Below, in pieces: positions 2,929-22,638 of a stretch of DNA of 64,000 bases (position 1 is the stretch's first letter; each line of letters begins with the position of its first letter). The notes under the pieces are model-generated. The model was not told where the DNA came from. It ran no database searches and was given only the letters and a program-made list of their open reading frames with translations. Both the position numbers and the translations under genes were made by a program. The stretch comes from Streptomyces collinus (GTDB taxonomy: Bacteria > Actinomycetota > Actinomycetes > Streptomycetales > Streptomycetaceae). The stretch spans positions 806,001 to 870,000 of the forward strand of contig NZ_CP133771.1 of the NCBI RefSeq assembly GCF_031348265.1. Reading direction: 5' to 3'.

Positions 2929-2973
2929 GGAGTCCCCTTTCGCGCGCACGGCCTTGCTCGACCGGCTCCAATC

Positions 2974-3016: not shown

Positions 3017-3026
3017 AGGTGAGTGC

Positions 3027-3032
3027 TAGGGT
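3027..3032 (+). promoter_or_regulatory. -10 box TAGGGT, leaderless layout for TetR gene
   Basis: TAGGGT is followed by exactly 7 nt and then the ATG at 3040. This TANNNT-N6/7-start geometry is typical of leaderless transcripts in actinobacteria. It favours the ATG at 3040 over the in-frame GTG at 3019, which would lie upstream of the promoter. Confidence 0.55.
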
Positions 3033-3039
3033 CGAGGTC

Positions 3040-3687: not shown

Positions 3688-3719
3688 CGGCACACCCCGT
3701 CGAAACCACCGAAACGGCG

Positions 3720-4939: not shown

Positions 4940-4970
4940 GAATGACTCCTGGAAGAGGGCAGGGCCCAGT

Positions 4971-5002
4971 AGGGGTGGGGCACCGTGTGGTGCCCCACCC
5001 CT
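4971..5002 (-). terminator. 14-bp perfect hairpin between exporter and DUF1015 gene
   Basis: AGGGGTGGGGCACC and its exact complement GGTGCCCCACCCCT flank a GTGT tetraloop. It lies 20 nt after the exporter stop codon and about 30 nt before the DUF1015 start. There is no T-run, as is common for Streptomyces terminators. It may end or attenuate transcription so that DUF1015 is expressed at a different level from the two upstream genes. Confidence 0.7.
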
Positions 5003-5022
5003 GGGGCCGGAGGGTTGGTGGG

Positions 5023-7445: not shown

Positions 7446-7581
7446 GTCTGTGTGTTCACTCTCGCTCGATGAATACCTGTGCGGTTCATCTCGCGCGTCC
7501 TGGTCATGGGCGGACGAGGCGTCCGTGCTCAGGCCATGGGCACGCGGCAGCCGTGAAGTCGGTCGGCTGCAAGCAAGTGGT

Positions 7582-8010
7582 CTAGATCCGCCACCGCGAC
7601 GTGCGAGCGAGCGCCGCGCGGCCGGTGCGTGCGCTCCGACGTCTACGGCGGTCGCGCCCTAGGAGGGGTTTCCCGGCCACCACGGACACGGCAAGGAGTA
7701 CGACGGCCATCGCGCCGAGGGCTCGTTCCTCGGCCGGCTGGGCCGCGGTGCGCACGATCACGTCCGCCGCACACTCCTCGGCCCCGTGGGGAGCGTGGGG
7801 GCCGTGAGGGTCCTTGTCCGCTGCCGTCGCGGAGAATGCGGCGGACACGGACACCGACTCGTGCGTCTCCTCAGATACGCCATGCAGGACGGCGCAGAGC
7901 ACGAGCGCCATCACGAGGGCGCCGCGGATCGCCGAGACGAATCGGCGGGACGACGGTGAGCCGCATGGGGTCCGTAGGGCGTGCAAGGGCGTACGGGAAT
8001 GGGTCGACAC
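7582..8010 (-). CDS. Small His-rich membrane protein, possibly DUF6153-like
   Basis: About 142 aa from the GTG at 8010, chosen because GGAGG lies 4 nt upstream. One hydrophobic segment ([16 protein letters not shown]) is followed by an extracytoplasmic loop with [19 protein letters not shown] second membrane helix ([16 protein letters not shown]) and an Arg-rich tail follow. The His/Cys cluster could bind metal. It resembles DUF6153-type streptomycete proteins in layout, but that assignment is from memory. A similar protein is encoded next to it in the same direction, and copper-associated fragments follow. Confidence 0.6.
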
Positions 8011-8190
8011 AGGTCCTCCGCGCTGCTGCCACGTCTCCGGCAAGCACGGAGTGAGGCGCAGACATGGGTGGGGGCAGGACGGCTTCGACGAACGGGGACG
8101 ACCCATCATGAGTACGGGGCAGGACGCTCGTCGCGCGTTACCAGCCGAACCGGTGACATCCGGCAGGCCGGTTGGAGGAACTGCGTACCT

Positions 8191-8646
8191 CTAGACCTGC
8201 CGCACCACGGAGGCTGCTCTGAGAGCCACGGGAGACTCACCGTCCATGGGCCCACCAGCGGTCGGCCCTCGAACGGTTGAGGCGTCGTAGGAACTGGTCG
8301 ATTCGCGAACCGACGCTGCAAAGCAGGGCGATACCAGGGCAGAAGCCTGCTGAGGCTGTCCGGATACGCAGTGCTCGCCAGGATGTGACGGCCCATGGCT
8401 CCCATGGTGATCGTCGGCATCCGCGGCGGACAGCGTCGGCACGAGGCCTGCATCGCGAACGCCGCCGTCCGACGGTGCGGTGAAGGCCGTTGCGCTTGGG
8501 GAGAGGTGTCCCTTGACACTATCCACGTGCACGCCGTGCGTCACGAGGACGCCGAACAGGAGCACGGCCATGGCCAGTACGCGCAGCAGCGGACCCGCAC
8601 CAGAGCGGGTCCTGACGATGCGCCAGGGCGACCAAGCCGTAACCAT
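8191..8646 (-). CDS. Small His-rich secreted or membrane protein, possibly DUF6153-like
   Basis: Hypothetical protein of 151 aa. An N-terminal hydrophobic segment (LLRVLAMAVLLFGVLVTHGVHV) acts as signal or anchor. It is followed by DADDHHGSHGPSHPGEHCVSG, a His-rich stretch ending in Cys like that of the downstream protein at 7582-8010. The two look like diverged tandem paralogues. The ribosome binding site is weak, so the exact start is uncertain. A role in binding copper or another metal is only a guess from composition and neighbourhood. Confidence 0.5.
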   Translation of the reverse strand: MVTAWSPWRIVRTRSGAGPLLRVLAMAVLLFGVLVTHGVHVDSVKGHLSPSATAFTAPSDGGVRDAGLVPTLSAADADDHHGSHGPSHPGEHCVSGQPQQASALVSPCFAASVRESTSSYDASTVRGPTAGGPMDGESPVALRAASVVRQV

Positions 8647-8702
8647 GCCGTGATCCTAGCGGCTCTCTGGAAGTGATCGACCACCCGTGCCGAAACACTG
8701 GG

Positions 8703-9375
8703 TTAACTTGTCAGATGAATGGCTTGTTTGCTGCGGGGAGTGCTCAGGCGACCTGATCCGGCCGCCGTGGCGAGGTCGCCGGACCGCAGGGCGACGAGGT
8801 GGCCGTATGCACCCAGGCAAGGCTGAAGGTTGCGGACCGGCTTGCCATCCTTCGTCACCGTCAGCGTCAGGTCACTGGCCCTGCCAGGGGTCGCGTCGCC
8901 GTCGAGTTTCACCTCTTACTCGTCCATCCTCGCCATCGTGTTGCGCCCGGGTAGTGCTGCGGGCTCGTAGGACCGGACGTCGCGAGGTCCGCGCCGAGAG
9001 TGAGCGCGTCTCCGCCCTTGGGCTTGAAGTCTGCAAAGACGCGGTGGCCGCCGGCCTTGGGCAGGTCCACCGGGGTGGACCAAGTGCCGTCTGCCGCGCG
9101 GGCGGGGTGTAGGTGCCGGTAGCCAGTGAGGTCGCGTGAGGCGAGGATCAGGTGGAGTTCCTTGCCGTGTTCGCGCTGGTTCGCGGTGACGTTTCGGCCT
9201 GTCCCGTCTTGTGCGACGGCGAAGCGCAGGTCGGTCTTCTTTCCGGCTTCGAGTCGCGGGGTCTTCAGGTCGAGCCTGTAGCCGCCCCGTCAGATCTGGA
9301 GGCCTCCCGGCGTCATGGCCTCATGATCGCCACCCTTCTCCTCATGCCCGGCCTTCGCATGACCCTCGGATCCCG
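8703..9375 (-). pseudogene. Decayed copy of the 319-aa secreted copper-associated protein
   Basis: Reading the minus strand across frames gives, in order, GDHEAMTPGGLQI, GGYRLDLKTPRLEAG, NQREHGKELHLILASRDL, YRHLHPARAADGTW, FADFKPKGGDALTLGADLA, EVKLDGDATPGRASDLTL and LGAYGHLVALRSGDLA. These match the intact proteins at 13249-14208 and 51816-52775. A base is lost just after GGLQI, an in-frame TAA replaces the Tyr before EVKLDG, and the last part (LHVHP onward) is missing. The signal peptide is also not recognisable. It is a non-functional paralogue. Confidence 0.85.
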
Positions 9376-9411
9376 TGTGTGCCGTTTCCCAGGTTCGGGT
9401 GAGATCGCGTC

Positions 9412-10107
9412 GACCGCGCCCTGGGTCTGTCCACCATCTTCGTCCGCGAGACTCGCGAGCACGCCCGCGCCGAGGCCGCCCAGCACCCCGCACAGCCGGG
9501 TTCGGAAGCCGAATTGACCACCGGCCAGATCGCCCGCCTCACCAGCCTCCGCGACAAGGCCCTGTCCGCAGCCAGCCAGGCCGGAATGGTCAACAACCTC
9601 AACGACGCCCTCGCCTGGGGCATCTTCCCCCTGCTCTTCGCCGCCCACGGCCTGTCCATCGCCCAGATCGGCGTCCTCGCAGCCCTCTACCCCGCCGTGT
9701 GGGGCGCGGGCCAGATGCTCACCGGCTCGTGGTCCGACCACATCGGACGCAAACACCTCATCACCGCGGGCATGCTGCTGCAGGCAGCTGCCATCGCTCT
9801 CGTCGCCGCCTCCACCACCTTCTCCTTGTGGGCCACCGCCCAGATCCTTCTTGGCATCGGCACCGCGCTGGTCTACCCGACCCTGCTCGCCGTGATCGGC
9901 GACGTCGCCCACCCCGCCTGGCGCGCCCGAGCCGTGGGCGTCTACCGCCTGTGGCGGGACGGCGGCTTCGCCGTGGGCGCGCTGGTCGCCGGAGTCCTTG
10001 CCGACGCCTACAGCCTCACCACCGCCATCTGGACTGTCGCCGCCCTCACCGCCGCCTCCGGCATCGTCGTCGCGATCCGCATGTACGAGACCCATCCGCG
10101 CGCCTGA
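9412..10107 (+). pseudogene. C-terminal half of an MFS transporter (5'-truncated)
   Basis: From about 9412 the frame reads RALGLSTIFVRET, then LNDALAWGIFPLLFAAHGLS, GSWSDHIGRKHLITAG and TALVYPTLLAVIGDVAHP. This is a good six-helix C-terminal half of an MFS protein. The N-terminal half is absent; upstream DNA belongs to the decayed secreted-protein copy on the other strand, and an in-frame TGA sits at 9400. A TTG at 9514 could start a 197-aa protein but would begin mid-domain. The breakpoint near 9400 marks an old deletion or recombination junction. Confidence 0.8.
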
Positions 10108-10126
10108 CCACCTTCTGGAGGTTGCC

Positions 10127-10235
10127 GTGCCAGAGCCCCGGCTCAACCCCGTGGGCATCGTCGTCGCCGACATGGCGGCGGCCCGCGCCTTCTACGCCCG
10201 GCTCGGCCTCGACTCCAAGAGCGACAAGCACATGC
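10127..10235 (+). pseudogene. N-terminal stub of a VOC (glyoxalase-like) protein
   Basis: A GTG start at 10127 with TGGAGG 5 nt upstream begins PEPRLNPVGIVVADMAAARAFYARLGLDS. This is the typical first beta-alpha-beta unit of a vicinal-oxygen-chelate domain. After about 36 residues the resemblance stops and the frame runs on into the 3' end of an opposing gene. The gene starts 19 nt after the MFS fragment, so the two were probably once an operon; the rest of the VOC gene is lost. Confidence 0.7.
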
Positions 10236-10354
10236 CCGCCCATGCCTCATGCGCCCCACTCAAGGGCCTGCGCGCCGTACGAATCAACACTGTTGTACGG
10301 GCAGCCAACGCTCGATGTAAGCGCGCAGCCCTTCGAGGTGTGCACCGCGCGCGA

Positions 10355-11110
10355 CTAGCCGAGGTAGCCGTCAGGGCGTACGAGCCCCTGGGCCGCGTCC
10401 GGCCACGGGCTCTCCCCGCCCAGCCGGTGCACGCTGATCAGGTCGTCCCGTCCGCGCAAGACTGAGGCGAAGCGTTCGTCGGGCCAAAGCGCGGGCGGCC
10501 CGGATAGAAGCAGGTGCCAGCCCGGCCCCGAACTCCGCGCCTGAAGCCCGCGCGGAATGTCGGGGAGCCGGTCGCCCGCTCGCGGCCCCTTCCTCGGTGG
10601 CCGCGAGCCCGCGGTGGAGGCGGGGCTTCGTCGGTAGTGGATGCCCAGCTCAGAGACCGTACGGAACACCCGCCCACGAGGTCCTGTCGCGCGTAGCGCC
10701 AACGGGGTCAGGCGCGGGGCGAGTCGAGTGCAGGCCAGGCGGATGAGCGGGTTGCGGCTGGTGCCGATGGTGAAGGCGCGGTCAGTGAAGCGCAGCACGC
10801 TGCGGCCGACCGGGGCGCACTCGATCTCGTACGTCTCCAGCAGCCCCTCCGGTGCCCTGCCCCGGCACACGAGGGCGGGCTTCCAGCCCAGGTTGAGGGC
10901 GTCCTGGATGCCGGTGTTCATGCCCTGGGCGCCGACCGGGCTGTGGATATGGGCCGCGTCGCCGGCGAGGAGGCAGGGGCCCGAGCGGTAGTGGGCGGCG
11001 CCGCGGTTGTGGAGCCGGAAGTCGGTCATCCAGACCGGGTCCCGCAGGACCAACCGGTCGGGGGTGTACTCGTCGGTGATCTTCTGCAGAAGCCCGAGCC
11101 TCACCTCTGC
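10355..11110 (-). pseudogene. C-terminal part of an FAD-dependent aromatic monooxygenase (5'-truncated)
   Basis: The frame carries KITDEYTPDRLVLRDPVWMTDFRL, then GPCLLAGDAAHIHSPVGAQGMNTGIQDALNLGWK, the GD..P..G.G.N FAD-binding motif of class A flavoprotein hydroxylases. A thioredoxin-like tail ends in LVRPDGYLG. The N-terminal dinucleotide-binding part (GxGxxG) is missing. Upstream, the sequence switches at about 11105-11117 into a truncated copper-binding protein reading in another frame. A GTG at 11104 could still give 249 aa, but without the FAD-binding N-terminus it should be inactive. Confidence 0.85.
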
Positions 11111-11117
11111 TGCACCG

Positions 11118-11327
11118 ACGGGACAGGACGGACGCCGTGGCGTTGCAGATGTCGGCGCAGTCCATGTCGGTGCGGATGCATTTGGTGTGATCGCCGACCA
11201 TGCCCTCGGACAGGCAGGCGTCGGCGCATGCCGTACATGCCTGGGCGCAGGCGAAGCATTCTTCGATGCAGCGGGTGAGCTTCTCGCGGCCGACGTCGCC
11301 GAGATCGGCCGGGTACGTGGCGAGCAT
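11118..11327 (-). pseudogene. Four-helix-bundle copper-binding protein (Csp-like), 3'-truncated
   Basis: About 70 residues match the first half of small Cys-rich four-helix proteins that store cuprous copper: MLATYPADLG, then CIEECFACAQACTACADACLSE and CIRTDMDCADICNATASVLS. The second half, with its remaining Cys, is replaced by the headless monooxygenase. The homology appears to extend upstream of the ATG at 11327 as DGHVKD. A GAGGAG site precedes ATC CCT GAC GGC, where an ATG start would be expected, so the original start codon may also be lost. It belonged to the same copper-related region as DUF4396. Confidence 0.8.
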
Positions 11328-11449
11328 GTCCTTGACGTGGCCGTCAGGGATCGTCTCCTCTGTCTGCCGCAGGCCGGCGGGCGGGGCGGCCTAATTCTTC
11401 GACTTGCGGCGCTGCACTCTCCGGATAGCCATCAGGAGGCGTGACAAAC

Positions 11450-11487
11450 GCGCCTGGGGCGCCCCCCTCAGGGGGCACCCCAGGCGC
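11450..11487. terminator. Strong hairpin after the DUF4396 gene
   Basis: GCGCCTGGGG-GCCCCC and GGGGGC-ACCCCAGGCGC pair around a CTCA loop with a one-base irregularity in each arm. It lies 18 nt beyond the stop of the DUF4396 gene on the minus strand and should end that transcript before the Csp remnant. Confidence 0.8.
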
Positions 11488-11504
11488 GCGCCGGCTCGGG
11501 CAGG

Positions 11505-12032
11505 TCAGTGGTAGGCGTGGACGACGGCGTGGCCCTTGCCGCGGCCGATCATCCACTTGTTGACCGGGGTGGTGATCAGGAAGGCGACACCGAATCCGCC
11601 CAGCAGGGCGGACCAGAACAGCCCGTCGGACAGATGGGCATCCATCGCGCCCGGGGTGAGAGCGATGATCGCGTTGTCGACGAATTCCATCACGGCGATG
11701 GAGACGGTGTCGGCGGCGAGCGCGACCTTGATCGCGGACCTGAGGTCCAAGCCGGCCCGGAGGACCGCGAACAGGGTGAAGGAGTAGCCGAAGAGGAATG
11801 CGAGTGTGATCGCCAAGACCATGGTGGGCACGTTGCCCCACAGCAGGGCGGTACCGATCACCATGCCGAGGATCTCGCCGATGGCGCAGCCGGTCAGGCA
11901 GTGCAGCGTCGCCTTTGCCGCCGTCCCCCAGGACGCCCCTGCGTGCCCGCCGTGGTGCGCCGCCTGATCAGCGGGAGCGTGGTGGGCGGCGTGATCGTGC
12001 TCCGTGCCGGCGTGATGAGCGCTGTGGTCCAT
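11505..12032 (-). CDS. DUF4396 domain-containing membrane protein
   Basis: Integral membrane protein of 175 aa with unknown activity. A His-rich cytoplasmic or periplasmic head (MDHSAHHAGTEHDHAAHH) precedes HCLTGCAIGEILGMVIGTAL, the hallmark DUF4396 segment, followed by three more hydrophobic segments and a conserved end NKWMIGRGKGHAVVHAYH. The start at 12032 has an AAAGG site. A CsoR-like palindrome lies 64 bp upstream, so it is probably copper-inducible. The His-rich head and Cys/His segment suggest metal handling. It faces the remains of a Csp gene downstream. Confidence 0.88.
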   Translation of the reverse strand: MDHSAHHAGTEHDHAAHHAPADQAAHHGGHAGASWGTAAKATLHCLTGCAIGEILGMVIGTALLWGNVPTMVLAITLAFLFGYSFTLFAVLRAGLDLRSAIKVALAADTVSIAVMEFVDNAIIALTPGAMDAHLSDGLFWSALLGGFGVAFLITTPVNKWMIGRGKGHAVVHAYH

Positions 12033-12095
12033 GACCTTTCATCCCCAATCCCGTCCAGTGTGGCCCGTTCCCGGGGGCCTCACACCAGAAACCAT

Positions 12096-12112
12096 ATACC
12101 CCCCGGGGGTAT
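12096..12112. promoter_or_regulatory. CsoR-like copper operator upstream of DUF4396
   Basis: ATACCCCCCGGGGGTAT is a perfect 8+1+8 palindrome. It closely matches the two operators at 52839 and 52885 next to copZA and the type of site bound by the copper repressor CsoR in Streptomyces. It lies 64 bp before the DUF4396 start. No csoR gene is in this window, so regulation would be in trans. Confidence 0.75.
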
Positions 12113-12220
12113 GTCTCAAGTGGCGGGCGGCGGAGCATCGGTCAGCGCGGGACCCGGGACTCTCACATCCCAAGACGGAGAGGCCGCGTAGCCGGTCCGC
12201 GGGCGCCACCGGCTTGGCCA

Positions 12221-12976
12221 GTGGGAGCGGAGCACGCTGCCCCACTGGGGCGGGCGCTGTTCGGCGCCCGCCCCTGCTTTCCTTTGTCGTCTGGGGAGTG
12301 GATCCCCCCGCACAGCCACCCACAGCACCAGCTGGCCTGGACTCGACGCGGTGTGCTCGGCGTCGCCGTCGACGACGCCTATCGGGTTCTGCCGCCCACC
12401 CGGGCACTGTGGCTGCCCGCGGGGGTCGTCCACCGAACCGGTGCGACCCGCGATGCGGTGCTGTGCAGTCTCTACCTCGAACCGGACCGGTGCGGTCTGG
12501 ACTGGACGGAACCCACTCCGGTCAGCGTCGACAGGCTGCTGGCCCACCTGATCGCCTACCTCAACCCCAGGACCTCGCCGACGACGTGCGACTGCGGGCC
12601 GAGGCAGTCGAACTGGATCTGCTGCACCCTCTGCCGACTAGGCCCATCGATGTGCCGCATCCCGTCGACGAACGCGTACGCGCCGTGGCCGACGCCCTGC
12701 TTGCCGATCCCGCGGAGCCTGGAGGCGCACGCACGGGCCGTCGGAGTGAGCCGACGCACTCTGACACGGCTGTTCGTCCACGACACGGGCATGAGCTTCA
12801 ACCGCTGGCGCACCCATATGCGGCTGCGGGCCGCCCTGCCCCTCCTGGCCGAAGGCATCCGTCTCCCGGGTCGCACACGCCGTGGGTTACGCGACACCAA
12901 GCGCGTTTCTCGTGGCATTCCGCCGTACCGTCGGCACCTCCCCGGGGCACTACTTCAACGGGGACGCCGCGCTTGA
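12221..12976 (+). pseudogene. AraC family regulator with three frameshifts
   Basis: The cupin-like sensor part is intact in the first frame (GEWIPPHSHPQHQLAWTRRGVLGV, ALWLPAGVVHRTG). At about 12570 the homologous sequence moves to another frame (DLADDVRLRAEAVELDLLHPLP). It returns near 12710 for the first DNA-binding helices (SLEAHARAVGVSRRTLTRLF). It shifts again at about 12862 for the end of the AraC domain (VSRVAHAVGYATPSAFLVAFRR, then SPGHYF). Three independent indels point to real decay rather than one sequencing error. The 270 bp after it up to 13248 hold nothing I recognise. Confidence 0.85.
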
Positions 12977-13248
12977 GGCGTCTGCTACGGGCGCGCCAGC
13001 GGAAGTCGAGGAGGAGGCGAGGCCGTGCCACGGCGAAGGCCAGAAGGGAGCGCAGTTTGAGTCGTCGCGCTCACCGCAATGAGTCGGCCTCCCGGTCACG
13101 GATGCCGGCACCCCGGCATGGCCGTCGAGGCTGATTACCTGCGGTCGCTTCACGGAAGACCTTCTCCGTGCGGTAGCCGTCTACTGAGGCGTCCACCAGC
13201 GGCAGTGGGTAGGTGTCGGCGGTACGCGATGATCATGGTGACCGTGGG

Positions 13249-14208
13249 TCAGTGCTGGTGATCACCGCTGTCCGACCCGCCAGCGGGCCCCGACGGCTCT
13301 TCGCCGCTCTCCGCAGCGTGGACGGTGAAGGCCACGGTGCGCACGGTGTCCTTGTGCTGGAAGTCCAGGAAGAGGCGGTATGCCCCGGCGCTGGGGGCGG
13401 TCGCGGTGAAGGAAATGTCCGGGCCGGGCCTGGTGGTGCCGTCGCCGGGCGTGCCGTGGGGGTGGACGTGCAGGTAGGCCAGGTCGCCGGAGCGCAGCGC
13501 CACGAGGTGGCCGTAGGCGCCGAGATAAGGCTGCAGGTCGGTGACGGGACGGGCCTGTTTGGAGACCGTCAGCGTCAGCTCCTGGGCAGAGCCGGGGCGC
13601 AGTCGGCCGTCGAGGGTGACGGTGTAGTCGTCGACTTCGGCGGTCCGGGACGGTGCGGGCAGGGCTTTGGGCTGGTAGGTGCCGGAGGCCGCAAGGTCGG
13701 CTCCGAGGGTGAGGTTCTTGCTGCCCTCGGCAGCCGGGGTGAAGTCGGCAAAGGCCCGGTAGTCGCCTGCGTCGGGCAGCGTGATGGGTGCGCTCCACGT
13801 GCCGTCCGCAGCGCGGGTGGGGTGCAGGTGCTGGTAGGAGGACAGGTCGCGGGAGGCGACGATGAGGTGCAGCTGCTTGCCGTGCTCTGTGCGGTAGGCA
13901 GTGACAGGCCGGCCTTCCTTGTCGCGGATGGCGAAGCGCAGCTCAGCGCGTCGGTCGGCTTCCAGGTGGGGGGTCTTCAGCTCAAGGGTGTAGCCGCCGT
14001 CGGATGATTGCAGCCCGCCGGCTGGAGGCGCTTCATGGGCGCTGGCCTGGTGACCGTCCGCATGCCCTTCCGACGGCTTGCGGGTGGGATGGCCGGCAGG
14101 GTCGACCATAGCCGCGACCGGCCCGATGACGGTGCCCAGGGCGTAAGCGGCGCCGACTACGACGGCGAAGGAGGCGGCGAACGTGGTGACCTTCGTTGCG
14201 GTGTTCAT
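13249..14208 (-). CDS. Secreted protein of the copper-associated 319-aa family
   Basis: 319 aa with an N-terminal membrane/signal segment (VTTFAASFAVVVGAAYALGTVIG), a His-rich spacer (GHADGHQASAHEAPPAGG) and a beta-rich body. Conserved blocks are HLIVASRDLSSYQHLHPTRA, FADFTPAAEGSKNLTLGADL, DLQPYLGAYGHLVALRSGDL followed by LHVHPHG, and a C-terminal FLDFQHKD strand ending in a His-containing tail. It is the same length as its paralogue at 51816-52775, which adjoins copZA; a third copy at 8703 is broken. The HLHP and LHVHP motifs could bind metal outside the cell. The function is not established. Unlike its paralogue it has no visible CsoR-type operator upstream. Confidence 0.85.
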   Translation of the reverse strand: MNTATKVTTFAASFAVVVGAAYALGTVIGPVAAMVDPAGHPTRKPSEGHADGHQASAHEAPPAGGLQSSDGGYTLELKTPHLEADRRAELRFAIRDKEGRPVTAYRTEHGKQLHLIVASRDLSSYQHLHPTRAADGTWSAPITLPDAGDYRAFADFTPAAEGSKNLTLGADLAASGTYQPKALPAPSRTAEVDDYTVTLDGRLRPGSAQELTLTVSKQARPVTDLQPYLGAYGHLVALRSGDLAYLHVHPHGTPGDGTTRPGPDISFTATAPSAGAYRLFLDFQHKDTVRTVAFTVHAAESGEEPSGPAGGSDSGDHQH

Positions 14209-14681
14209 GGCATCTCCTGGGATGCGTCCCTAGTTGGCAGTGTGGTGTGCGGCGACGGCTGTGTCGCGCCGACGGCTTCCCTGCCCATCGCTGGGTGACC
14301 GATCGCCGTGGCGCGGGGGATCGGTTCGGCTTCAGCGCGGAGTTCACCGCGATCGGAATGGCGAGGGCCGCCTGGTGCCGGTGGCAGACGGCCTCGGGGT
14401 GAGTCGTGTGTGGAATCCTCCGGCTGCCCAGGCCGGCCTACGCACCCGTAGACTCGTTCTGCGGCTGTTTTACGGGCTGACTGGCCAGTGGTGAAGGACC
14501 CTTGCGCATCAGCAGCAGGGTGATGAGTCCGCCGGAGGCTGCCGGTGTCGTCGTCATGGCGTTCTGGCTTCGAGCAGAAAGAGACCCGGTCGCCCAAGTC
14601 GGCCGGATCTCCGCAGTGCCGACGGGGCAGCGATTCATCGATGGAGACGAGGCACGGCGACCGCTGGCGCGCGTGTTTCGC
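14209..14681. other. 473 bp without a recognisable gene
   Basis: Short open frames exist on both strands, but none has a family resemblance, a ribosome binding site or normal streptomycete codon use throughout. It lies between two minus-strand genes. It may hold the promoter of the 13249-14208 gene and remnants of a lost gene. Confidence 0.5.
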
Positions 14682-15416
14682 TCAGCTGTGGTGCCGGCCG
14701 CGCACGCGCACTCCAGTGACGAGCACTCCGATGGCGAAGACCAGGACGAGGATGAAAATGGCGATGCCGAGGACGTCCTGAAGCCCACTGGCCAGGCCGC
14801 TGTAGCCCACGTCGACGCCGAAGATCAAAGAGCACACCCCTGCCACAAGCGCCGTCCACCCCAGCCAGCCAGGAACCCGGCGACCAACGAGAATCGCAGC
14901 CCCGAAGAGCGCGAGGGTCAGGCCAAGCATGATGCGGAAGTAGCTCTGGAATCCCCATTCCAGCCAGCGCACGGTCTCAGCGTTGGCAAAGCGGATCTCC
15001 TTCTCAGTGCCCGACGCGCCGACCCATGAGTCGACGGCCTGCTTCAGCCCCACGCCATCCAGTCCCTGCAGAACAGCCCAGATTGCGGCAGTCGCAACAG
15101 CTGCCGCTGCCGCGAGCTGCGCAACCAGGGGAGGCCCGTCGGCACCGCGCAGGACGCGGTACAGCACGAGCAGGCCACTCAGCGTCACCAGGACGCCGAT
15201 GAACTGGCCCAGATGAACCGCGATCCAGGCGCCGCTCTCTGCGTACTCAGTGAAGATCGCCGGATGGTCGTCTTCCTCCCCTGAAGGATGAAGTGCGGCG
15301 GTCAAGATGACATTGAGAAGGAAGCCCCCGACCATGAGCCCGCCGGCGATCGTCAACCTGCGGCGTCGCGAGTCGGCTGTGTCCGCCCCTTCGCCACTAT
15401 GCACATCCGGACTCAT
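14682..15416 (-). CDS. Six-helix membrane protein, DUF4386-like
   Basis: 244 aa from the ATG at 15416, which has GAGGAGT 10 nt upstream. Hydrophobic segments include LTIAGGLMVGGFLLNVILTAAL, AVHLGQFIGVLVTLSGLLVLY, an Ala-rich helix, IMLGLTLALFGAAILVG and a final pair near VLGIAIFILVLVFAIGVLVTG. It has a short cytoplasmic head and an Arg/His tail. The layout resembles DUF4386-type proteins, but the match is weak. It is the last intact gene of the accessory zone; its function is unknown. Confidence 0.7.
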   Translation of the reverse strand: MSPDVHSGEGADTADSRRRRLTIAGGLMVGGFLLNVILTAALHPSGEEDDHPAIFTEYAESGAWIAVHLGQFIGVLVTLSGLLVLYRVLRGADGPPLVAQLAAAAAVATAAIWAVLQGLDGVGLKQAVDSWVGASGTEKEIRFANAETVRWLEWGFQSYFRIMLGLTLALFGAAILVGRRVPGWLGWTALVAGVCSLIFGVDVGYSGLASGLQDVLGIAIFILVLVFAIGVLVTGVRVRGRHHS

Positions 15417-16102
15417 GAGCAGTCCCACTCCTCTCGATGTCACAGACCGACGTACCTGAGGATCACCAGATGCAGCCGCTGTCTCAGGACACGCAGCGCC
15501 GCTTCACCCGAACGAGGTCTACTCTCGACCGATTGCGCCAGTGACGGGGCAGCTCGGCTCGCACCGGACGAGCGGCCCAGTCGGAGGACCGGATTCTGTG
15601 ATCTCGCGAAGTTCACCGAGCAGCGCTCATCACCACGAACACTTTCGAACCAAGATCCGGACATACCCGGACCAGCCGTCCGCGGCTTGTGGCCCCCGTC
15701 AACATCCTTTCCCAGCGGTCGATTCGGCGCCCCCCCGGCAAGCACACTCCCGGCAGGCAGCCCTCAGTGGAGAGTGCAGGAGTCGCCATTCGCGTCGCCC
15801 CGTGCGGTCTACCAACGGACCTGGTCGCAGGCTGGGACGCCCGCCGCATCACAAGTCCAAGTTGCGGACCATGCGCAGGCCAACATCTCGTTCACCGCAG
15901 AGCCGATCTTCATGCCCCCCCCAGGTCTCAGCTCCCTGTCAAACCATGTGACTGTCGCTACCGAACCAGCACGGGAGTAAGCACGCCAGCATCAAATCCC
16001 CCCAATTTACGCAACATGGACTCTGTCTGATCAGCCGCCGATGAAGCCCTCAGGACGGCCCTTGAAGCACTGGCATGGGGGCGACACGCACACCCCGCCC
16101 GC
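15417..16102. other. About 690 bp without a recognisable gene
   Basis: This stretch is somewhat less GC-rich than its surroundings. Its open frames (for example 15541-15951) lack ribosome binding sites, domain motifs and the usual third-position GC bias. It separates the decaying accessory zone from the conserved hydroxybutyrate locus and may be the scar of a deletion. Confidence 0.5.
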
Positions 16103-16152
16103 GAACTATGTAGTCCCACCACATGTGCCCCTGACCTGCATCTTCCTACCGT
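16103..16152 (+). promoter_or_regulatory. Promoter of MFS symporter with GAACTATG-N8-CCACATG element
   Basis: GAACTATG (16103-16110), 8 nt, CCACATG (16119-16125), then 21 nt and a -10-like TACCGT (16147-16152). The same arrangement, with the same 8- and 21-nt spacings, occurs upstream of the dehydrogenase gene at the other end of the locus (20426-20475). The element covers the -35 region and upstream, where an activator or repressor would bind. The PucR-type protein encoded between the two sites is the obvious candidate. Confidence 0.65.
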
Positions 16153-16198
16153 GTGCCGACACGTACCCGTCCCCACCGCACACGAGGAAGTGGCGCCC

Positions 16199-17587
16199 AT
16201 GGCCTCCGCACCCACCGCTCCCCCACCCCAGGGCAACCTCAAGCGCATCGTCGCCGCGTCCCTCATCGGCACCACCATCGAGTGGTACGACTTCTTCCTC
16301 TACGGCTCCGCCGCAGCGCTCGTGTTCAACAAGCTGTTCTTCCCGGACTCCGACCCGCTCGTCGGCACTCTCCTGTCGTTCCTGACGTACGCCGTCGGGT
16401 TCGCAGCCCGGCCGCTGGGCGCGCTGGTGTTCGGGCACTACGGCGACCGGCTCGGGCGCAAGAAGCTCCTGGTGCTGAGTCTGTTGCTGATGGGCGGGGC
16501 CACGTTCGCCATCGGGCTGCTGCCGACGCACGCCACCATCGGGTCGGCCGCGCCGGTGCTGCTCACCGTGCTCCGGCTGGTCCAGGGTTTCGCGCTCGGC
16601 GGTGAGTGGGGCGGTGCCGTGCTGCTGGTGTCGGAACACGGCGACGCGCGGCGGCGTGGGTTCTGGGCGTCGTGGCCGCAGACCGGCGCGCCGGCGGGAC
16701 AGCTCCTGGCCACCGGTGTGCTGTCGCTGCTCACGGCCCTGCTGTCGGACGCAGCGTTCGGCAGCTGGGGCTGGCGGATCCCGTTCCTGCTCTCCGGGGT
16801 GCTGGTGATCGTCGGTTTGTGGATTCGTCTGTCTGTCGATGAATCGCCGGTCTTCAAGCAGGCGTTGGCGCAGGCCGAGGCCCGCAAGGCGGACGTGGCC
16901 GCGGAGGCCGAGAAGACGCCGCTCGTCTCCGTGCTGCGGCACCACTGGCGTGACGTCCTGGTCGCCATGGGCGCGCGCATGGCGGAGAACATCAGCTACT
17001 ACGTCATCACGGCGTTCATCCTCGTCTACGCCACCACCTCGGCCGGTGTCTCCAAGCAGACCGCGCTCAACGCGGTGCTGATCGCCTCGGCCGTGCACTT
17101 CGCCGTCATCCCCGGGTGGGGCGCGCTGTCCGACCGGATCGGCCGCCGGCCCGTGTATCTGATGGGTGCGGTCGGTGTCGGGCTGTGGATGTTCCCCTTC
17201 TTCGCGCTGATCGACACCGGCGGCTTCGGCAACCTGATCCTCGCCGTGACCGTCGGGCTGGTCCTGCACGGGGCGATGTACGCGCCCCAGGCCGCGTTCT
17301 TCTCCGAGATGTTCGCGACGCGCATGCGCTACTCCGGTGCCTCGATCGGTGCGCAGTTCGCCTCGGTCGCGGCGGGTGCGCCCGCCCCGCTGATCGCCAC
17401 CGCGCTGCTGTCCGACTACGGCAGCTCCACGCCGATCTCCCTGTACGTCATCGCCGCCGCCGTGCTCACGGTCGTCGCAGTGGCGGCGGCCAAGGAAACG
17501 CGCCACCGGGACCTGGCCGACGTCGCTCCTCCCTCAGGCCAGGGAGCAGAGCGGACGGCCGCCGCCCCGGAGGACGCCCGCGCCTGA
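16199..17587 (+). CDS. MFS metabolite:proton symporter (MHS/ShiA-ProP type)
   Basis: Uptake permease of about 462 aa from the ATG at 16199, preceded by GAGGAAG. The metabolite:H+ symporter signature is clear: IVAASLIGTTIEWYDFFLYGSAAALVF, then ARPLGALVFGHYGDRLGRKK (motif A), RLVQGFALGGEWGGAVLLVSEH, and the long central loop before a second motif-A-like GALSDRIGRRP. Such carriers import small organic acids or betaines. The locus also holds a 3-hydroxybutyrate-dehydrogenase-like enzyme and a shared promoter element, so a hydroxy acid such as 3-hydroxybutyrate is a plausible substrate; this is inference. Confidence 0.9.
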   Translation: MASAPTAPPPQGNLKRIVAASLIGTTIEWYDFFLYGSAAALVFNKLFFPDSDPLVGTLLSFLTYAVGFAARPLGALVFGHYGDRLGRKKLLVLSLLLMGGATFAIGLLPTHATIGSAAPVLLTVLRLVQGFALGGEWGGAVLLVSEHGDARRRGFWASWPQTGAPAGQLLATGVLSLLTALLSDAAFGSWGWRIPFLLSGVLVIVGLWIRLSVDESPVFKQALAQAEARKADVAAEAEKTPLVSVLRHHWRDVLVAMGARMAENISYYVITAFILVYATTSAGVSKQTALNAVLIASAVHFAVIPGWGALSDRIGRRPVYLMGAVGVGLWMFPFFALIDTGGFGNLILAVTVGLVLHGAMYAPQAAFFSEMFATRMRYSGASIGAQFASVAAGAPAPLIATALLSDYGSSTPISLYVIAAAVLTVVAVAAAKETRHRDLADVAPPSGQGAERTAAAPEDARA

Positions 17588-17612
17588 TCGGCCCGGGACT
17601 GTGGCCGGCCTG

Positions 17613-17637
17613 CCCCCGTACGTTCCGCGTACGGGGG
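17613..17637. terminator. Bidirectional hairpin between convergent genes
   Basis: CCCCCGTACG and CGTACGGGGG form a perfect 10-bp stem with a TTCCG loop, placed between the symporter stop (17587) and the regulator stop (17638). It should terminate transcription from both sides. Confidence 0.85.
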
Positions 17638-19560
17638 TCAGGGCTGTTCCGGTGCCGACAACCGGTGCAGACGCAGGGCGAGTTGGATCTCCAGTGCCCG
17701 TGCCGGGCTCTGCCAGTCGTCGCCGAGGAGGCGGCCGACGCGTTCCAGACGCTGGGCGACGGTGTTCACATGGACGTGCAGTGCGTCCTTGGTGCGGGCG
17801 GGGCTCATGCCGCAGGCGAAGTAGGCGTCGAGGGTGCGCAGCAGTTCCGTGCCGCGTCGGCGGTCGTAGGCGACGACCTCGCCGATGGTGCGGTCGACGA
17901 AGCCCGGGATGTCCCGGTCGCCGGCCAGGAGCAGCCCGAGGAAGCCGAAGTCCTCGGCGGCGGCTCCGTCCCCGAAGCGGCCTAGGACACACAGGGCTTC
18001 GAGGCAGCGGCGGGCCTCCGCGTAGGCCGTGGCCACGGCTTCGGGGCGGGTGGCGAGGTCCTCGACCGGTGCGGACGCGCCGACGGTGACGGGTGCGTGG
18101 ACCGCCGTGCCCAGATGCCGGGCGGCACGGCGGGCCACGTCCGTGGCGGTGTCGCCGGAGCCGAGGGGCAGCAGCAGGACGGTGCCGCCGTCGCGGGCGG
18201 CGGCCAGGCCGTGCCCGGTAGCGGCCAGGTGGGACGCCGCCGCTGCCAGGCGTCTGCGAGCGTCGGTCTCCTGCTCGGCGTCGGCGGCATCGCCCGCCGG
18301 CCGCGCGGCCAGCACCACGTGCAGAGCGTCGAGGTCGGCGTGCAGCCGGGCCGCGCGCTCCCGCAGCAGACGCGGGTCGCGGTCACGGGCGTCCAGCAGG
18401 TCGTCGAGCAGCTCACCGCGCACGCGTTGCTCGGCCTCGGCGGCGGATCTGCGGGCCAGGAGCAACAGGGACGTGACCATCGCGGCACGCTCCAGGGTGC
18501 GCTGGTCGACCGGGTCGAGCCCCGGGTGGCCCCGCAGCACCAGTGCGCCGAGCAGTTCGCCCCCGGCGGCGACGGCGGCGATCCAGTCGTCATCGTGCAG
18601 CACCGCGTGTCCCTGCGCTCCGGACTTCTCCAGGGCCCCGGCGGGTGCGGCGGCGGCCTCGGCGAACTCGACCGTGCCGTCGAGGATCTCGGAGACGGCG
18701 GCGGCCACGTCGTGCACCCCGCCGCCGCGCAGGACGAGTTCGGCGAGCCGGTCGTGCACGTCGGAGGCGCGCTCGATGACGCCGCTGCGGTCCCGGATGA
18801 TCTCGTTCGCACGCTCCAGGCCGGCCAGGGCCGATCTGGTCTCGGCGAGCAGGTTGGCGGTGTCGATGGCGGCCGCGGCGAGGGCGGCGAAGGAGCCGAG
18901 CAGGGCGATCTGCTCCCGTTCGAAGACCCGGGCGCGGCGGTCGGCGGCGAACAGCACGCCGATGACGTGGTGCCCGAGCGTCAGCGGCACGCCGAGGATG
19001 GCCACCAGCCCCTCGTCCCGCACGCCCGCGTCGATGGTGAGGGTGTGCTGGAAACGGTCGTCCTTGAAGTAGTCGTCGGTGACGTAGGGGCGCGCGGTCT
19101 GTGCGACCAGGCCGCCGAGCCCCTCCCCCATGCCGAGCCGCAGCTGCTGGAACCGGGCCGCGACCGAGCCCTCGGTGACCCGCATGTAGGTGTCGCCGCG
19201 CTCGGTGTCGTGCAGGCTGAGGTAGGCGACGTCCGTGCCCAGCAGCGAGCGGGCGCGCTGCACGATCGCCTGGAGCACGGCGTCGAGGTCCCGCAGCCCG
19301 GCGAGGTCGTGGGCGGTCTCGAACAGGGCGGACAGCTCGGCCTCGCGCCGCCGTCGTCCCTCCAGTTCGGCGCGTACGCGCAGGGCCAGCGGCTTGGCCT
19401 GCCGGAGCGCGGCGATCCACTCCGCCGGGCGCCCTTCGGCACGCGCGAGCAGTTCAGGCTGCTCGTAGGCGTCGGCCGACGCGCCCCGGGCCAGGAGCTC
19501 GAGGAACGGCATTTCGGCGGACTGCACGTGATCGCTGGACATGCTCACAGGATTCACCAT
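17638..19560 (-). CDS. GAF-domain PucR/CdaR-type transcriptional regulator
   Basis: 640-aa regulator. An N-terminal helical region leads into a GAF sensor domain at about residues 75-230 (LDAVLQAIVQRARSLLGTDVAYLSLHD; LGVPLTLGHHVIGVLFAADRR). A second less conserved sensor-like region and a CdaR GGDEF-like segment follow. The C-terminal PucR helix-turn-helix reads LLRTLDAYFACGMSPARTKDALHVHVNTVAQRLERV. The ATG at 19560 lacks a good ribosome binding site; an ATG at 19542 is an alternative start. It lies 58 nt downstream of the dehydrogenase gene, so the two form an operon, convergent to the symporter. It probably senses the transported acid and acts at the shared promoter element. Confidence 0.9.
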   Translation of the reverse strand: MVNPVSMSSDHVQSAEMPFLELLARGASADAYEQPELLARAEGRPAEWIAALRQAKPLALRVRAELEGRRRREAELSALFETAHDLAGLRDLDAVLQAIVQRARSLLGTDVAYLSLHDTERGDTYMRVTEGSVAARFQQLRLGMGEGLGGLVAQTARPYVTDDYFKDDRFQHTLTIDAGVRDEGLVAILGVPLTLGHHVIGVLFAADRRARVFEREQIALLGSFAALAAAAIDTANLLAETRSALAGLERANEIIRDRSGVIERASDVHDRLAELVLRGGGVHDVAAAVSEILDGTVEFAEAAAAPAGALEKSGAQGHAVLHDDDWIAAVAAGGELLGALVLRGHPGLDPVDQRTLERAAMVTSLLLLARRSAAEAEQRVRGELLDDLLDARDRDPRLLRERAARLHADLDALHVVLAARPAGDAADAEQETDARRRLAAAASHLAATGHGLAAARDGGTVLLLPLGSGDTATDVARRAARHLGTAVHAPVTVGASAPVEDLATRPEAVATAYAEARRCLEALCVLGRFGDGAAAEDFGFLGLLLAGDRDIPGFVDRTIGEVVAYDRRRGTELLRTLDAYFACGMSPARTKDALHVHVNTVAQRLERVGRLLGDDWQSPARALEIQLALRLHRLSAPEQP

Positions 19561-19618
19561 GACCGGCCGGTCCCGTCAGCCCTGTGGACAACTCCCCCGG
19601 GCGGACGGAAGTGGCTGC

Positions 19619-20419
19619 TCAGTGGGCGGTCCAGCCGCCGTCGAGCACGAGCGAGGCACCGGTCACGAAGGAGGCCTGCGGACCGCACAGATACGCCACC
19701 GCCTCGGCGACCTCCTCCGGTTCGATCAGCCGTTTGACGGCGCTGTCCTGCAGCAGCACCTCGGACAGCACGCGCTCTGCGGGGATGCCGTGCGCCTGTG
19801 CCTGGTCGGCCAGCTGCTTCTCGACCAGTGGGGTGCGCACATAGGCAGGGTTCACACAGTTCGAGGTGACACCGTGGGGCGCGCCTTCGAGGGCGGTGGT
19901 CTTGGACAGTCCCTCCAGCCCGTGTTTGGCGGCCACATAGGCCGACTTGTAGGCCGAGGCGCGCAGGCCGTGGACGGACGACACGTTCACGATGCGGCCC
20001 CACCCCTGCCCGTACATGTGGGGCAGGGCCCCGCGGATGAGCCGGAACGGTGCCTCCAGCATCACGGTGAGCACCGTGTGGAACACCTCCGGCGGGAACT
20101 CCTCGATGGGGCGCACCAGTTGGAGCCCGGCGTTGTTGACGAGGACGTCGGTGCCCGCTGCGGCGACTTCGGCGGCGTCCAGGTCGGTGAGGTCGAGGAC
20201 GTGCGGTTCCACCGTGCCGGCGAGGCCGCGCCCGTGTCCGGCCAGTGCCTCCAGGCCCGCGGCGTCCCGGTCGACGGCTCTCACCTTGGCCCCGGCTGCC
20301 GCGAGCCGCAGCACGCAGGCACGGCCGATGCCGCCGGCGGCGCCGGTGACGAGCGCGGTGCGGCCGCCCAGGTCGAGCGGGGAGGCGTGGGGGGCCGGGA
20401 GGGCATGGGGCGCGGTCAT
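19619..20419 (-). CDS. Short-chain dehydrogenase, probable 3-hydroxybutyrate dehydrogenase
   Basis: 266-aa classical SDR, NAD-linked. Visible are TGAAGGIGRACV (cofactor glycine motif), DVLVNNAG, NVSSVHG with the catalytic Ser, and YVAAKHGL with the Tyr-xxx-Lys pair. The long segment LVEKQLADQAQAHGIPAERV is characteristic of D-3-hydroxybutyrate dehydrogenases. It would oxidise 3-hydroxybutyrate to acetoacetate. A TAGGGT -10 box 6 nt before the ATG implies a leaderless mRNA. It heads the operon that continues into the PucR-type regulator. Another SDR specificity remains possible. Confidence 0.85.
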   Translation of the reverse strand: MTAPHALPAPHASPLDLGGRTALVTGAAGGIGRACVLRLAAAGAKVRAVDRDAAGLEALAGHGRGLAGTVEPHVLDLTDLDAAEVAAAGTDVLVNNAGLQLVRPIEEFPPEVFHTVLTVMLEAPFRLIRGALPHMYGQGWGRIVNVSSVHGLRASAYKSAYVAAKHGLEGLSKTTALEGAPHGVTSNCVNPAYVRTPLVEKQLADQAQAHGIPAERVLSEVLLQDSAVKRLIEPEEVAEAVAYLCGPQASFVTGASLVLDGGWTAH

Positions 20420-20425
20420 GGTTCG

Positions 20426-20475
20426 ACCCTAGGCAGCGTCCCTGCCCCACCCCATGTGGTCACGCCCCATAGTTC
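20426..20475 (-). promoter_or_regulatory. Leaderless promoter of dehydrogenase gene with GAACTATG-N8-CCACATG element
   Basis: On the minus strand: GAACTATG (20475-20468), 8 nt, CCACATG (20459-20453), 21 nt, TAGGGT (20431-20426), 6 nt, ATG at 20419. Fifteen fixed positions and both spacings are identical to those upstream of the symporter at 16103-16152. With the start point at the ATG, the element spans about -34 to -56. Confidence 0.65.
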
Positions 20476-20953
20476 AGCTGGAGGCAGTGGGGTCGAACCA
20501 TGTGGGGTCGTCCGACAGGGCCTGCTTGATCCGGAGCAGGCCGAACTCGTTCAGCTCGGGCAGCGCGTCGACGTCGAACCAGGCCACGTCCAGCGACTCG
20601 TCGTCGTTGACCTTCGCCTCCCCGCCGACGGCCCGGCAGCGGAAGGTGATGTCCATGTACTGGCAGGTGTCACCGTTCTCGTACGTCACGGGTTGCAGTG
20701 CCTGGACGACGACCACCCGTTCGGCGATGCAGCGCACGGCCGTCTCCTCGTAGACCTCCCGTACCGCGCAGGCCGCGGGCTGCTCCCCCGGGTCGGGGAT
20801 GCCGCCGAGCACGGACCACCGGCGGGTGTCGGCCCGGCGGTTGAGCAGCACTCTGCCCTCGTCGTCGAAGACGAGGGCGGTGACCCCGGGGAGCCAGAGC
20901 AGCTGATGACCGGCCGAGGCACGGAGTGTGCGGATGAAGTCGGGAGTAGCCAT
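20474..20953 (-). CDS. NUDIX hydrolase
   Basis: 159-aa cytoplasmic pyrophosphohydrolase. The Nudix box is GGIPDPGEQPAACAVREVYEET, in agreement with GX5EX7REUXEEXG except that Ala replaces the penultimate Gly. The flanking strands are LLWLPGVTALVFDDEGRVLLNRR and YMDITFRCRAVGGEAKVNDDES. The substrate cannot be told; the last half suggests the broad ADP-ribose or dNTP-cleaning group. It is transcribed alone from a leaderless-type promoter and ends next to the dehydrogenase promoter region. Confidence 0.9.
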   Translation of the reverse strand: MATPDFIRTLRASAGHQLLWLPGVTALVFDDEGRVLLNRRADTRRWSVLGGIPDPGEQPAACAVREVYEETAVRCIAERVVVVQALQPVTYENGDTCQYMDITFRCRAVGGEAKVNDDESLDVAWFDVDALPELNEFGLLRIKQALSDDPTWFDPTASS

Positions 20954-20960
20954 GCCGTCG

Positions 20961-20966
20961 ACCCTA
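20961..20966 (-). promoter_or_regulatory. -10 box TAGGGT, leaderless layout for NUDIX gene
   Basis: TAGGGT on the minus strand is followed by 7 nt and the ATG at 20953. No ribosome binding site is present, consistent with a leaderless transcript. Confidence 0.55.
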
Positions 20967-21021
20967 ATGGGCCGCCTCCGGCGCCCCGGCGCGATTCAGG
21001 CGGTGTGGGGACTGCGTACGG

Positions 21022-22638
21022 CTACACGTCACCGGCGCGTCGTCCGCGCAGTCCGGCGCCGACGGCCCAGCCGAGTCCGCCGGCCGCGACCAGCACGAGG
21101 GCGATCTCCGGCAGGATGCCGAGCCGGGTGGCGGGGGTCTGCGAGGACCGCAGTGGCACCTTCTGCACCAGGGAGTCGGCCACGAACATGCCGGTCTTCT
21201 GGGTGATGCGGCCGTCCGGCATGATGATCGCGCTGACTCCGCTGGTCACCGGCACGGTCACGGTCCGGCTGTGCTCGACCGCGCGCACGCGGGACATGGC
21301 GAGCTGCTGGTACGTCATCTCGCTGCGGTCGAAGGTGGCGTTGTTGCTGGGCACGGAGATCATCTGGGCGCCGTCGGTGACCTCGGAGCGCACGGTCCAG
21401 TCGAAGGCGGCCTCGTAGCAGGTGACGAGCCCGACCTTGGCGCCGTCCATGGTGAACACGCCCGGCTTGGTGCCCCGGCTGAAGTCCTGTCGCTGCATCG
21501 AGGTCCAGTTGCTGTTGATGGCCCCGATCAGCGAACGGAACGGCAGGTACTCGCCGAACGGCTGGATCTGGCGCTTGTCGTAGGTGTCGACGGGGCCCTT
21601 CGCCGGGTCCCACAGGATCTGCTCGTTGTACAGCTTGCCGTCCCGCTCGACGACACCGCCGACCGAGATGGGCACGCCGATGGACTTGGCCGCCGTGTCG
21701 ATGACGGCGCGGGCGTCGGGGTTGGCGAAGGGATCGATGTCGGAGGAGTTCTCCGGCCACAGCACGAAGTCGGGTTGCGCGACCTTGCCCGCCTTGACCT
21801 CGGCGGCCAGGCGTTCCGTCTCGCGCGCGTGGTAGTCGAGCACGGCCCGCCGCTGTGAGTTGAAGTCGAGTCCGGCGCGGGGCACGTTGCCCTGGATCAC
21901 CGCGACGGTGGCGCTGCCGTCCTCCGCCGTGTCGCTGACCAGGGGCCGGGCGGCGACGGCGGCCACGACCGGGACGGCCAGGCTCAGCAGACCCAGGGCA
22001 GCGGCGGAGCGCCGTACCTCACCGGTCCGCCGCCGTTCCACGGCGAGGCGGACGACCTCGTAGAGGCCGAAACCGCACAGCACGACAGCGAAGCCGAGCA
22101 CTGGGGTGCCGCCCACCGCGGCGAGCGGCAGGAACACGCCGTCCGCCTGACCGAACGCGACCTTCCCCCAGGGGAAGCCGTTGAAGGGCGCACGCGCGCG
22201 TGCCGCCTCGCCGGCGATCCACACGGCGGCGGCCCACACCGGCCAGCCGGGCAGCTTCGACACGGCCGCGACGCCGGCGCCGACGGCGGCGACGAAGAGA
22301 GCCTCGATCGCCACCAGCGCGAGCCAGGGTCCCGGCCCCACCTCCACTCCGGTCCACACCAGCAGCGGCAGCAGGAAGCCGAGGCCGAAGAGGTAGCCGA
22401 GGCCCAGCCCGGCCTTCCAGCCGCGGCCGCGCAGCACCCAGCCGAAGACGGCGAAGGCCGGCAGCGCCAGCCACCACAGGGTGCGGGGCGGAAAGGAGAC
22501 GTACAGGAGCAGGCCGGAGAGCGCGGCTGCGGCGGCCGGAACGAGACGCACGAGCCGCCGGGCCCACGTCCGCGCCCCGGGCGCGGTCCGCGGCTCCAGC
22601 TGGTCCGACTCGCCGACGGAGGTTGCGGTGACGGTCAC
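21022..22638 (-). CDS. lnt: Apolipoprotein N-acyltransferase
   Basis: 538-aa integral membrane enzyme that adds the third acyl chain to the N-terminal Cys of lipoproteins. The N-terminal half has about six to seven hydrophobic segments, including FPPRTLWWLALPAFAVFGW. It carries the usual PFNGFPWGKVAFGQ motif. The C-terminal half is a CN-hydrolase domain with the expected catalytic triad: Glu in VLWPENSSDI (about residue 294), Lys in YDKRQIQPFGEYLP (about 354) and Cys in VTCYEAAFDW (about 406). A last helix anchors the C-terminus. It is a separate protein rather than the Ppm1 fusion seen in some actinobacteria. Confidence 0.95.
   Translation of the reverse strand: MTVTATSVGESDQLEPRTAPGARTWARRLVRLVPAAAAALSGLLLYVSFPPRTLWWLALPAFAVFGWVLRGRGWKAGLGLGYLFGLGFLLPLLVWTGVEVGPGPWLALVAIEALFVAAVGAGVAAVSKLPGWPVWAAAVWIAGEAARARAPFNGFPWGKVAFGQADGVFLPLAAVGGTPVLGFAVVLCGFGLYEVVRLAVERRRTGEVRRSAAALGLLSLAVPVVAAVAARPLVSDTAEDGSATVAVIQGNVPRAGLDFNSQRRAVLDYHARETERLAAEVKAGKVAQPDFVLWPENSSDIDPFANPDARAVIDTAAKSIGVPISVGGVVERDGKLYNEQILWDPAKGPVDTYDKRQIQPFGEYLPFRSLIGAINSNWTSMQRQDFSRGTKPGVFTMDGAKVGLVTCYEAAFDWTVRSEVTDGAQMISVPSNNATFDRSEMTYQQLAMSRVRAVEHSRTVTVPVTSGVSAIIMPDGRITQKTGMFVADSLVQKVPLRSSQTPATRLGILPEIALVLVAAGGLGWAVGAGLRGRRAGDV

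Follow-up and report, generated by a model that had tools for sequence, protein, structure and literature searches.

Organization of the locus

The window analysed here is a 64-kb stretch of DNA (G000:C1:806001-870000) that contains a symporter gene on the plus strand followed by three genes on the minus strand:

16199..17587, plus strand: MFS metabolite:H+ symporter gene (TIGR00883, 435 bits, just below the cut-off of 443)
17638..19560, minus strand: regulator gene, 640 aa, with GAF, GGDEF-like and PucR C-terminal helix-turn-helix (HTH) domains; proposed binder of both sites described below
19619..20419, minus strand: 3-hydroxybutyrate dehydrogenase (HBDH) gene (TIGR01963, 338.7 bits, cut-off 307), its start codon at the predicted transcription start
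20474..20953, minus strand: NUDIX hydrolase gene, its stop codon overlapping the first bases of the predicted HBDH operator

To the left of the symporter, positions 1-16000 hold varied genes, which include two MFS drug-type transporters, a TetR-like gene and, at 11505-12032, a gene for a histidine-rich small protein (all named by reading). Positions 1-3703 match, at 93% identity, a stretch that lies upstream of the symporter in S. albogriseolus (L146).

The regulator contains a PucR C-terminal HTH at residues 573-631 (PF13556, 67.3 bits, cut-off 27) and a GGDEF-like domain at residues 394-522 (PF17853, 50.6 bits, cut-off 24.5), and these two matches place it among the PucR-type (HTH_30) transcription regulators. 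The N-terminal PucR domain PF07905 is absent from the families matched at an E value of 0.001 or better, its place being occupied by a GAF domain (residues 91-232). Lacking PF07905, the protein is not a PucR in the strict sense of a purine catabolism regulator. It is likewise not the equivalog of AdeR (31.8 bits, cut-off 700) or of CdaR (25.7, cut-off 612) on the NCBIfam models. The recognition-helix stretch [LM]H[VI]H.NTV.QR[LI][ED]R is common to this protein and the 26 others aligned with it, and the best structure match is that of MabR (9f80).

A composite element at both ends of the locus

An earlier note on this DNA had claimed that a composite element, GAACTATG-N8-CCACATG-N21-TANNNT, occurs at both ends of the locus in mirror orientation. 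A check of the sequence confirmed that both copies are exact, at 16103-16152 on the plus strand and at 20475-20426 on the minus strand. Their parts are:

16103..16125, plus strand: symporter operator core (predicted operator), exact match to GAACTATG-N8-CCACATG
16147..16152, plus strand: -10 box TACCGT of the symporter promoter, 21 bases after the core
20453..20475, minus strand: HBDH operator core (predicted operator), exact match to the same pattern
20426..20431, minus strand: -10 box TAGGGT of the HBDH promoter, a TANNNT at +21

The first site points toward the symporter and the second toward the HBDH gene, which precedes the regulator gene on the same strand. The NUDIX stop codon (20474-20476) takes in the leading GA of the second site, and these two bases are thus coding-constrained.

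The pair of matching elements is not a chance occurrence. With up to three mismatches allowed the window yields just these two sites, both of them exact, and shuffled windows give a mean of 0.40 matches at the same tolerance, 8 of 100 shuffles reaching two. The 8.87-Mb home genome holds three exact copies of the 15-base pattern, the two sites and a third (G000:C1:803610) that lies 2.4 kb left of the window; at three mismatches the genome gives 26 matches against 37 for the reversed pattern, which is the background level. Across the genus the exact pattern is present in 88 of 392 genomes and the reversed control in none (0/392). The non-randomness of the element was in this way borne out.

Conservation in Streptomyces

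To follow conservation in front of the orthologous genes, five regulator proteins were aligned and the alignment was used to scan for relatives, of which the best 80 of 348 gave 80 named loci. In front of the symporter (66 loci from these best 80 of 348) the 15 bases show no mismatch in 39, one in 16, two in nine, three in one and seven in one; at the last of these the symporter is 72% identical and may not be an orthologue. Upstream of HBDH (79 loci from the same best 80 of 348) there are no mismatches in four, one in 30, two in 30, three in seven, four in seven and six in one. The element is therefore present at three mismatches or fewer in 65/66 symporter and 71/79 HBDH loci. The HBDH-type site has the form GAA[G/C]TATGGG...CCACATG.

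The two kinds of promoter have boxes and spacing in common, but not the intervening sequence, and each keeps its own consensus across species. This argues against the likeness of the two sites being the result of recent copying of one promoter into the other, an explanation that, despite the existence of further symporter-promoter copies as relics (see below), is scarcely credible.

Co-occurrence with the regulator

A total of 199 genomes of the genus were sorted into 98 with a close orthologue of the regulator (at least 73% identity, some partial matches), 33 with a distant relative only (54-60%) and 68 with none, that is, with no regulator match at E 1e-150. A relaxed site, GAASTRTG-N8-CCAYATV, is found in 94/98, 3/33 and 20/68 of these, respectively, with 192 matches against 24 for its reversed control; the close-orthologue genomes that lack it are G022, G068, G084 and G180. 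Co-occurrence with the regulator orthologue, 94/98 against 23/101 genomes without one, has a P value of 1e-28, uncorrected for phylogeny.

Sixteen of the 20 genomes in the 'none' class that carry the site were inspected (all except G028, G052, G170 and G195). Nine of them keep the symporter with its site and have no relative of the regulator or of HBDH above 50% identity in the fetched stretch. In two an HBDH site is accompanied by no more than the beginning of the regulator, two others have regulators at 63-64%, and another combines a symporter at 74% with a regulator at 54%. In one draft genome the pieces are spread over separate contigs, and in the last the site looks like a chance match.

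Sites in other genera

At E 1e-90 the regulator is found in 42/246 genomes of the class, belonging to 14/103 genera including Streptomyces. The distance between the PucR and HBDH genes is at most 1.8 kb in 22/22 loci, which show several gene orders, the symporter sometimes lying between the two. A score built from the Streptomyces sites locates the operator upstream of HBDH or the symporter in 20/22 loci (p 0.02 or less), the p values being too large because the random windows could include the site itself. In a second set, from whose random windows the site neighbourhood was excluded, the operator is found in 20/20 loci (p 0.013 or less). The 22-locus test gave no significant site at L236 and L242, of which L236 passes a single lax threshold. 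This threshold gives 45 sites at 39/41 distant PucR loci, several of which are close relatives of one another; the sites precede the HBDH or symporter unit, and L242 and L245 have no site at this threshold. Where the symporter follows HBDH in one unit there is mostly no site before the symporter itself, as expected. Judged from these gene neighbourhoods, the site follows HBDH and symporter units through rearrangements in other genera.

The distant sites also carry conserved bases further upstream, at positions that were not used in finding them: among the 45, C is present at -14 in 43, A at -13 in 42 and Y at -12 in 42. The motif CRCAY lies at -16 in 20/45, the next best offset reaching 7.

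Genomes that retain the symporter site alone

The nine symporter-only genomes (L251-L258 and L262), in eight of which the NUDIX gene adjoins the symporter, bear on the identity of the binding protein. The operator is conserved in them and the upstream flank is not; as the operator has been kept while its flank drifted, something must still read it. In eight of the nine a distant PucR is encoded elsewhere, each time next to an HBDH gene of its own that has an operator built in the same way; none of 300 random windows matches the scores of these eight operators. The ninth, G116, has just a C-terminal PucR fragment on a short contig. Since the nine genomes have lost the adjacent regulator and yet keep the element, a trans-acting regulator has to be assumed, and a regulator acting in trans would be the simplest account of them. 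The earlier note had proposed that the protein encoded between the two sites acts on them. Co-occurrence and conservation speak for this proposal, but the persistence of the operator in nine genomes without an adjacent regulator does not fit an actor that is always the neighbour.

The same genomes are the main argument for a different binding protein, for example a sensor of carbon or nitrogen status, with PucR acting elsewhere or through that factor, as they retain the symporter operator without a neighbouring PucR and HBDH. We consider this unlikely: the home genome holds just three exact copies, the distant-genome sites examined are all in units containing or beside a PucR gene, and 8/9 of the symporter-only genomes do have a distant PucR elsewhere.

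At the distant PucR-HBDH pairs without a symporter (L286-L293 and L305) a variant, GTGTG-N11-C[AG]TG, replaces TATG-N11-CATG.

Architecture of the predicted operator and promoters

The element extends beyond the limits first drawn for it. The boxes and spacers described in the earlier note are real, but the element is larger, with a further CAY box upstream. The additional features in the window are:

16086..16092, plus strand: upstream half-site ACGCACA (CAY box) of the symporter operator, positions -17 to -11, symporter consensus
16074..16078, plus strand: CATGG, a possible fourth half-site at positions -29 to -25, kept in symporter promoters and weaker in distant loci
20486..20492, minus strand: upstream half-site CCCCACT of the HBDH operator, positions -17 to -11, inside the NUDIX coding end, where coding constraint overlaps

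The CAY bases recur at the distant sites, in whose detection these positions played no part, and on this comparison the full predicted operator is CCACAYa (-17 to -11), TRTG (4 to 7) and CAYR (19 to 22), followed by 21 bases and TANNNT. The TRTG and CAYR half-sites stand in inverted order at the distant sites. A simple palindrome was rejected, as the 23-base core has no strong dyad by score and a reading with three or four half-sites fits better. A 33-bp tandem repeat was also considered; among the shifts of the respective profiles the 33-bp one ranks first for the symporter and second for HBDH, but it is not significant because 16% (symporter) and 10% (HBDH) of column permutations reach the same score.

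TANNNT lies at exactly +21 in 64/65 of the named symporter promoters and 60/63 of the HBDH promoters (from the best 80 of 348 relatives), the sites counted having three mismatches or fewer and complete flanks and, in the case of HBDH, lying 26-39 bases from the inferred start. With this fixed distance the element lies upstream of the target genes and near the -35 region of the predicted start sites. In 62/63 HBDH promoters from the same best 80 of 348 the start codon is at +56/+57 from the start of the site, where transcription would begin, and the HBDH transcript is for this reason probably leaderless. Matches to a TTGACA box at a spacing of 16-19 bases are at random level, no sigma-70 promoter or terminator consensus was found in 15500-21000, and 15000-21500 has no Rfam match up to E 0.5.

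The -10 box at a fixed distance would also be expected of a mere conserved core promoter for a particular sigma factor, with no specific regulator. This explanation is very improbable, given that the conserved boxes reach upstream to about -73, that the copies per genome are few and that their presence tracks PucR.

A recurrent junction at codon 31 of the symporter

The symporter promoter also occurs in extra copies that lack the gene, at L038:6611 (the home-genome copy G000:C1:803610), L040:5837, L043:6456, L045:6880, L049, L051, L053, L058-L072 and L306-L325. In many copies the homology spans the promoter together with the first 31 codons, ending at one base, after GAGTGGTACGAC and before AACTCATTCGATC; the home-genome copy stops near its own -10 box and not at codon 31. 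Beyond the junction the copies share related sequence for at most about 130 bases, in which AGTCAGCAC / CCAGCAC motifs recur. Several intact symporter promoters, that of the window included, have similar motifs some 100-160 bases further upstream:

15960..16002, plus strand: CAGCAC-type repeats like those beside codon-31 junctions, 43 bases, 84% identity to the matching region of L044

The junction was found in 12/31 genomes of an initial survey at three mismatches or fewer and, at two or fewer, in 24/199 genomes with 30 matches (control 0). A symporter fragment is on the left in 24 of the 26 copies inspected among these 30, the exceptions being one each in G016 and G173. The symporter could be placed on the junction contig in 16 genomes (G013, G019, G025, G033, G083, G085, G104, G117, G118, G124, G144, G153, G173, G193, G197 and G246), in G104, G117 and G197 via the site and the adjoining regulator. 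In 15 of these 16, G104 being the exception, the junctions are upstream of the symporter in the same direction, and those with a symporter fragment lie 1.8 to 190 kb from it. Varied cargo genes follow the junctions.

These junctions resemble the attL scars that would be left by integrative elements bringing in a replacement 5' end. We regard as evenly balanced the more specific reading that symporter codon 31 is an attachment site for integrative elements bearing their own operator, promoter and first 31 codons, so that the promoter at 16103 would be element-borne. Each insertion would then replace the 5' end and control region of the symporter, leaving the old promoter stranded upstream, and repeated insertions would build an island upstream of the gene.

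The junctions inspected contain no intact element or clear integrase. In G334 a tyrosine integrase gene (L075:87-1568) is followed, after about 150 bases, by a decayed copy of the symporter 5' end with its junction (1741-1765), and in G019 a related integrase remnant (L080:2445-2723) is located about 360 bases past the junction. Relatives of the G334 integrase are present in 47/295 genomes, but it was not adopted as the integrating agent because the fetched loci of these relatives carry no junction sequence. The junction has no exact match in viral contigs and none in phage records; a plasmid collection gave three weak matches, two of which are intact symporter relatives (one giving a Nonomuraea locus) and the third from Cupriavidus. 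Correlation of alignment distances over 65 named loci did not demonstrate replacement of the symporter 5' end: the correlation of promoter distances with those of the PucR gene is poor (rho 0.12), and codons 1-31, at 0.49 against 0.11-0.58 in other windows of the symporter gene, are no outlier. An empty-site comparison for the home genome gave no clean empty site, the flank being common with S. viridochromogenes and the cargo with S. albogriseolus.

Predicted regulatory circuit

Both elements are probably operators recognised by the GAF-GGDEF-PucR regulator whose gene lies between them, and this regulator would activate the symporter and the HBDH-regulator unit; this prediction is drawn from sequence comparison. 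The regulator, probably a dimer or tetramer, would occupy half-sites of the type CACAYA / TRTGTG at about -73 to -67, -52 to -49 and -37 to -34, the operator spanning about -73 to -34. There it may contact the -35 region; the promoters carry a TANNNT -10 box and lack a recognisable -35 box. An activator working at a class II-like promoter would be in keeping with both this position and the missing -35 box. The predicted targets are the symporter and the probably leaderless HBDH-regulator unit, and since the regulator gene sits in the latter the circuit would be self-regulated. The presumed inducer, to be sensed by the GAF domain, is 3-hydroxybutyrate or else a related ketone body or short-chain acid.

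The proposed activation is supported by the PucR relatives, which bind inverted repeats and mostly activate. In the available text of PMC7652997 the studied relatives are activators, except B. subtilis PucR, which is dual, and several members of the family bind inverted repeats of 17-24 bp. GabR of the actinomycete Corynebacterium glutamicum is likewise a PucR-type protein that acts as local activator on a catabolic unit; its two 21-bp inverted-repeat sites, between -87 and -23, occupy a region comparable to that of the present operator, the comparison being one of site position. As that text describes it, GabR differs from the window regulator in having GABA gene targets and no GGDEF-like domain (PMC7652997). 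AdeR and PutR of Bacillus subtilis are also PucR-type catabolic activators, with inverted-repeat operators of 24 and 17 bp according to the same text (PMC7652997), but they belong to other pathways, and the score of the window protein on the AdeR model is far below cut-off, as given above.

Two relatives resemble the regulator in domain structure, as far as the accessible parts of the respective papers describe them. MabR (Rv2242) of Mycobacterium tuberculosis also combines a GGDEF-like domain with a PucR HTH and forms dimers and tetramers, but has a globin-like N-terminal domain in place of GAF and controls mycolic acid synthesis (PMC11617747). SrmR of Streptomyces ambofaciens is an activator that also has a GAF domain and a PucR-like HTH, its target being spiramycin synthesis (PMC8388888). 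The binding site of 'Srm22', which we take to be SrmR or a related protein, is given as not determined in the available text of PMC7652997.

In the literature searched, which is mainly open-access, neither an operator for a PucR regulator of the GAF type nor a regulator of a 3-hydroxybutyrate dehydrogenase from an actinomycete came to light. A search of it for PucR, 3-hydroxybutyrate and Streptomyces gave nothing, and one for PucR and hydroxybutyrate dehydrogenase only nitrogen control in Bacilli, by title. The regulator family and the proposed mode of action are of known kinds, and the operator and regulon appear to be undescribed in this literature.

The operator and regulon proposed here are testable and would point to a likely ligand class, 3-hydroxybutyrate or related compounds, for the GAF-type branch of the PucR family. 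The operator also supplies a candidate 3-hydroxybutyrate-responsive promoter. If the reading of codon 31 as an integration site is true, the symporter gene would represent a hotspot at which the promoter of a regulated gene is swapped while its operator is retained.
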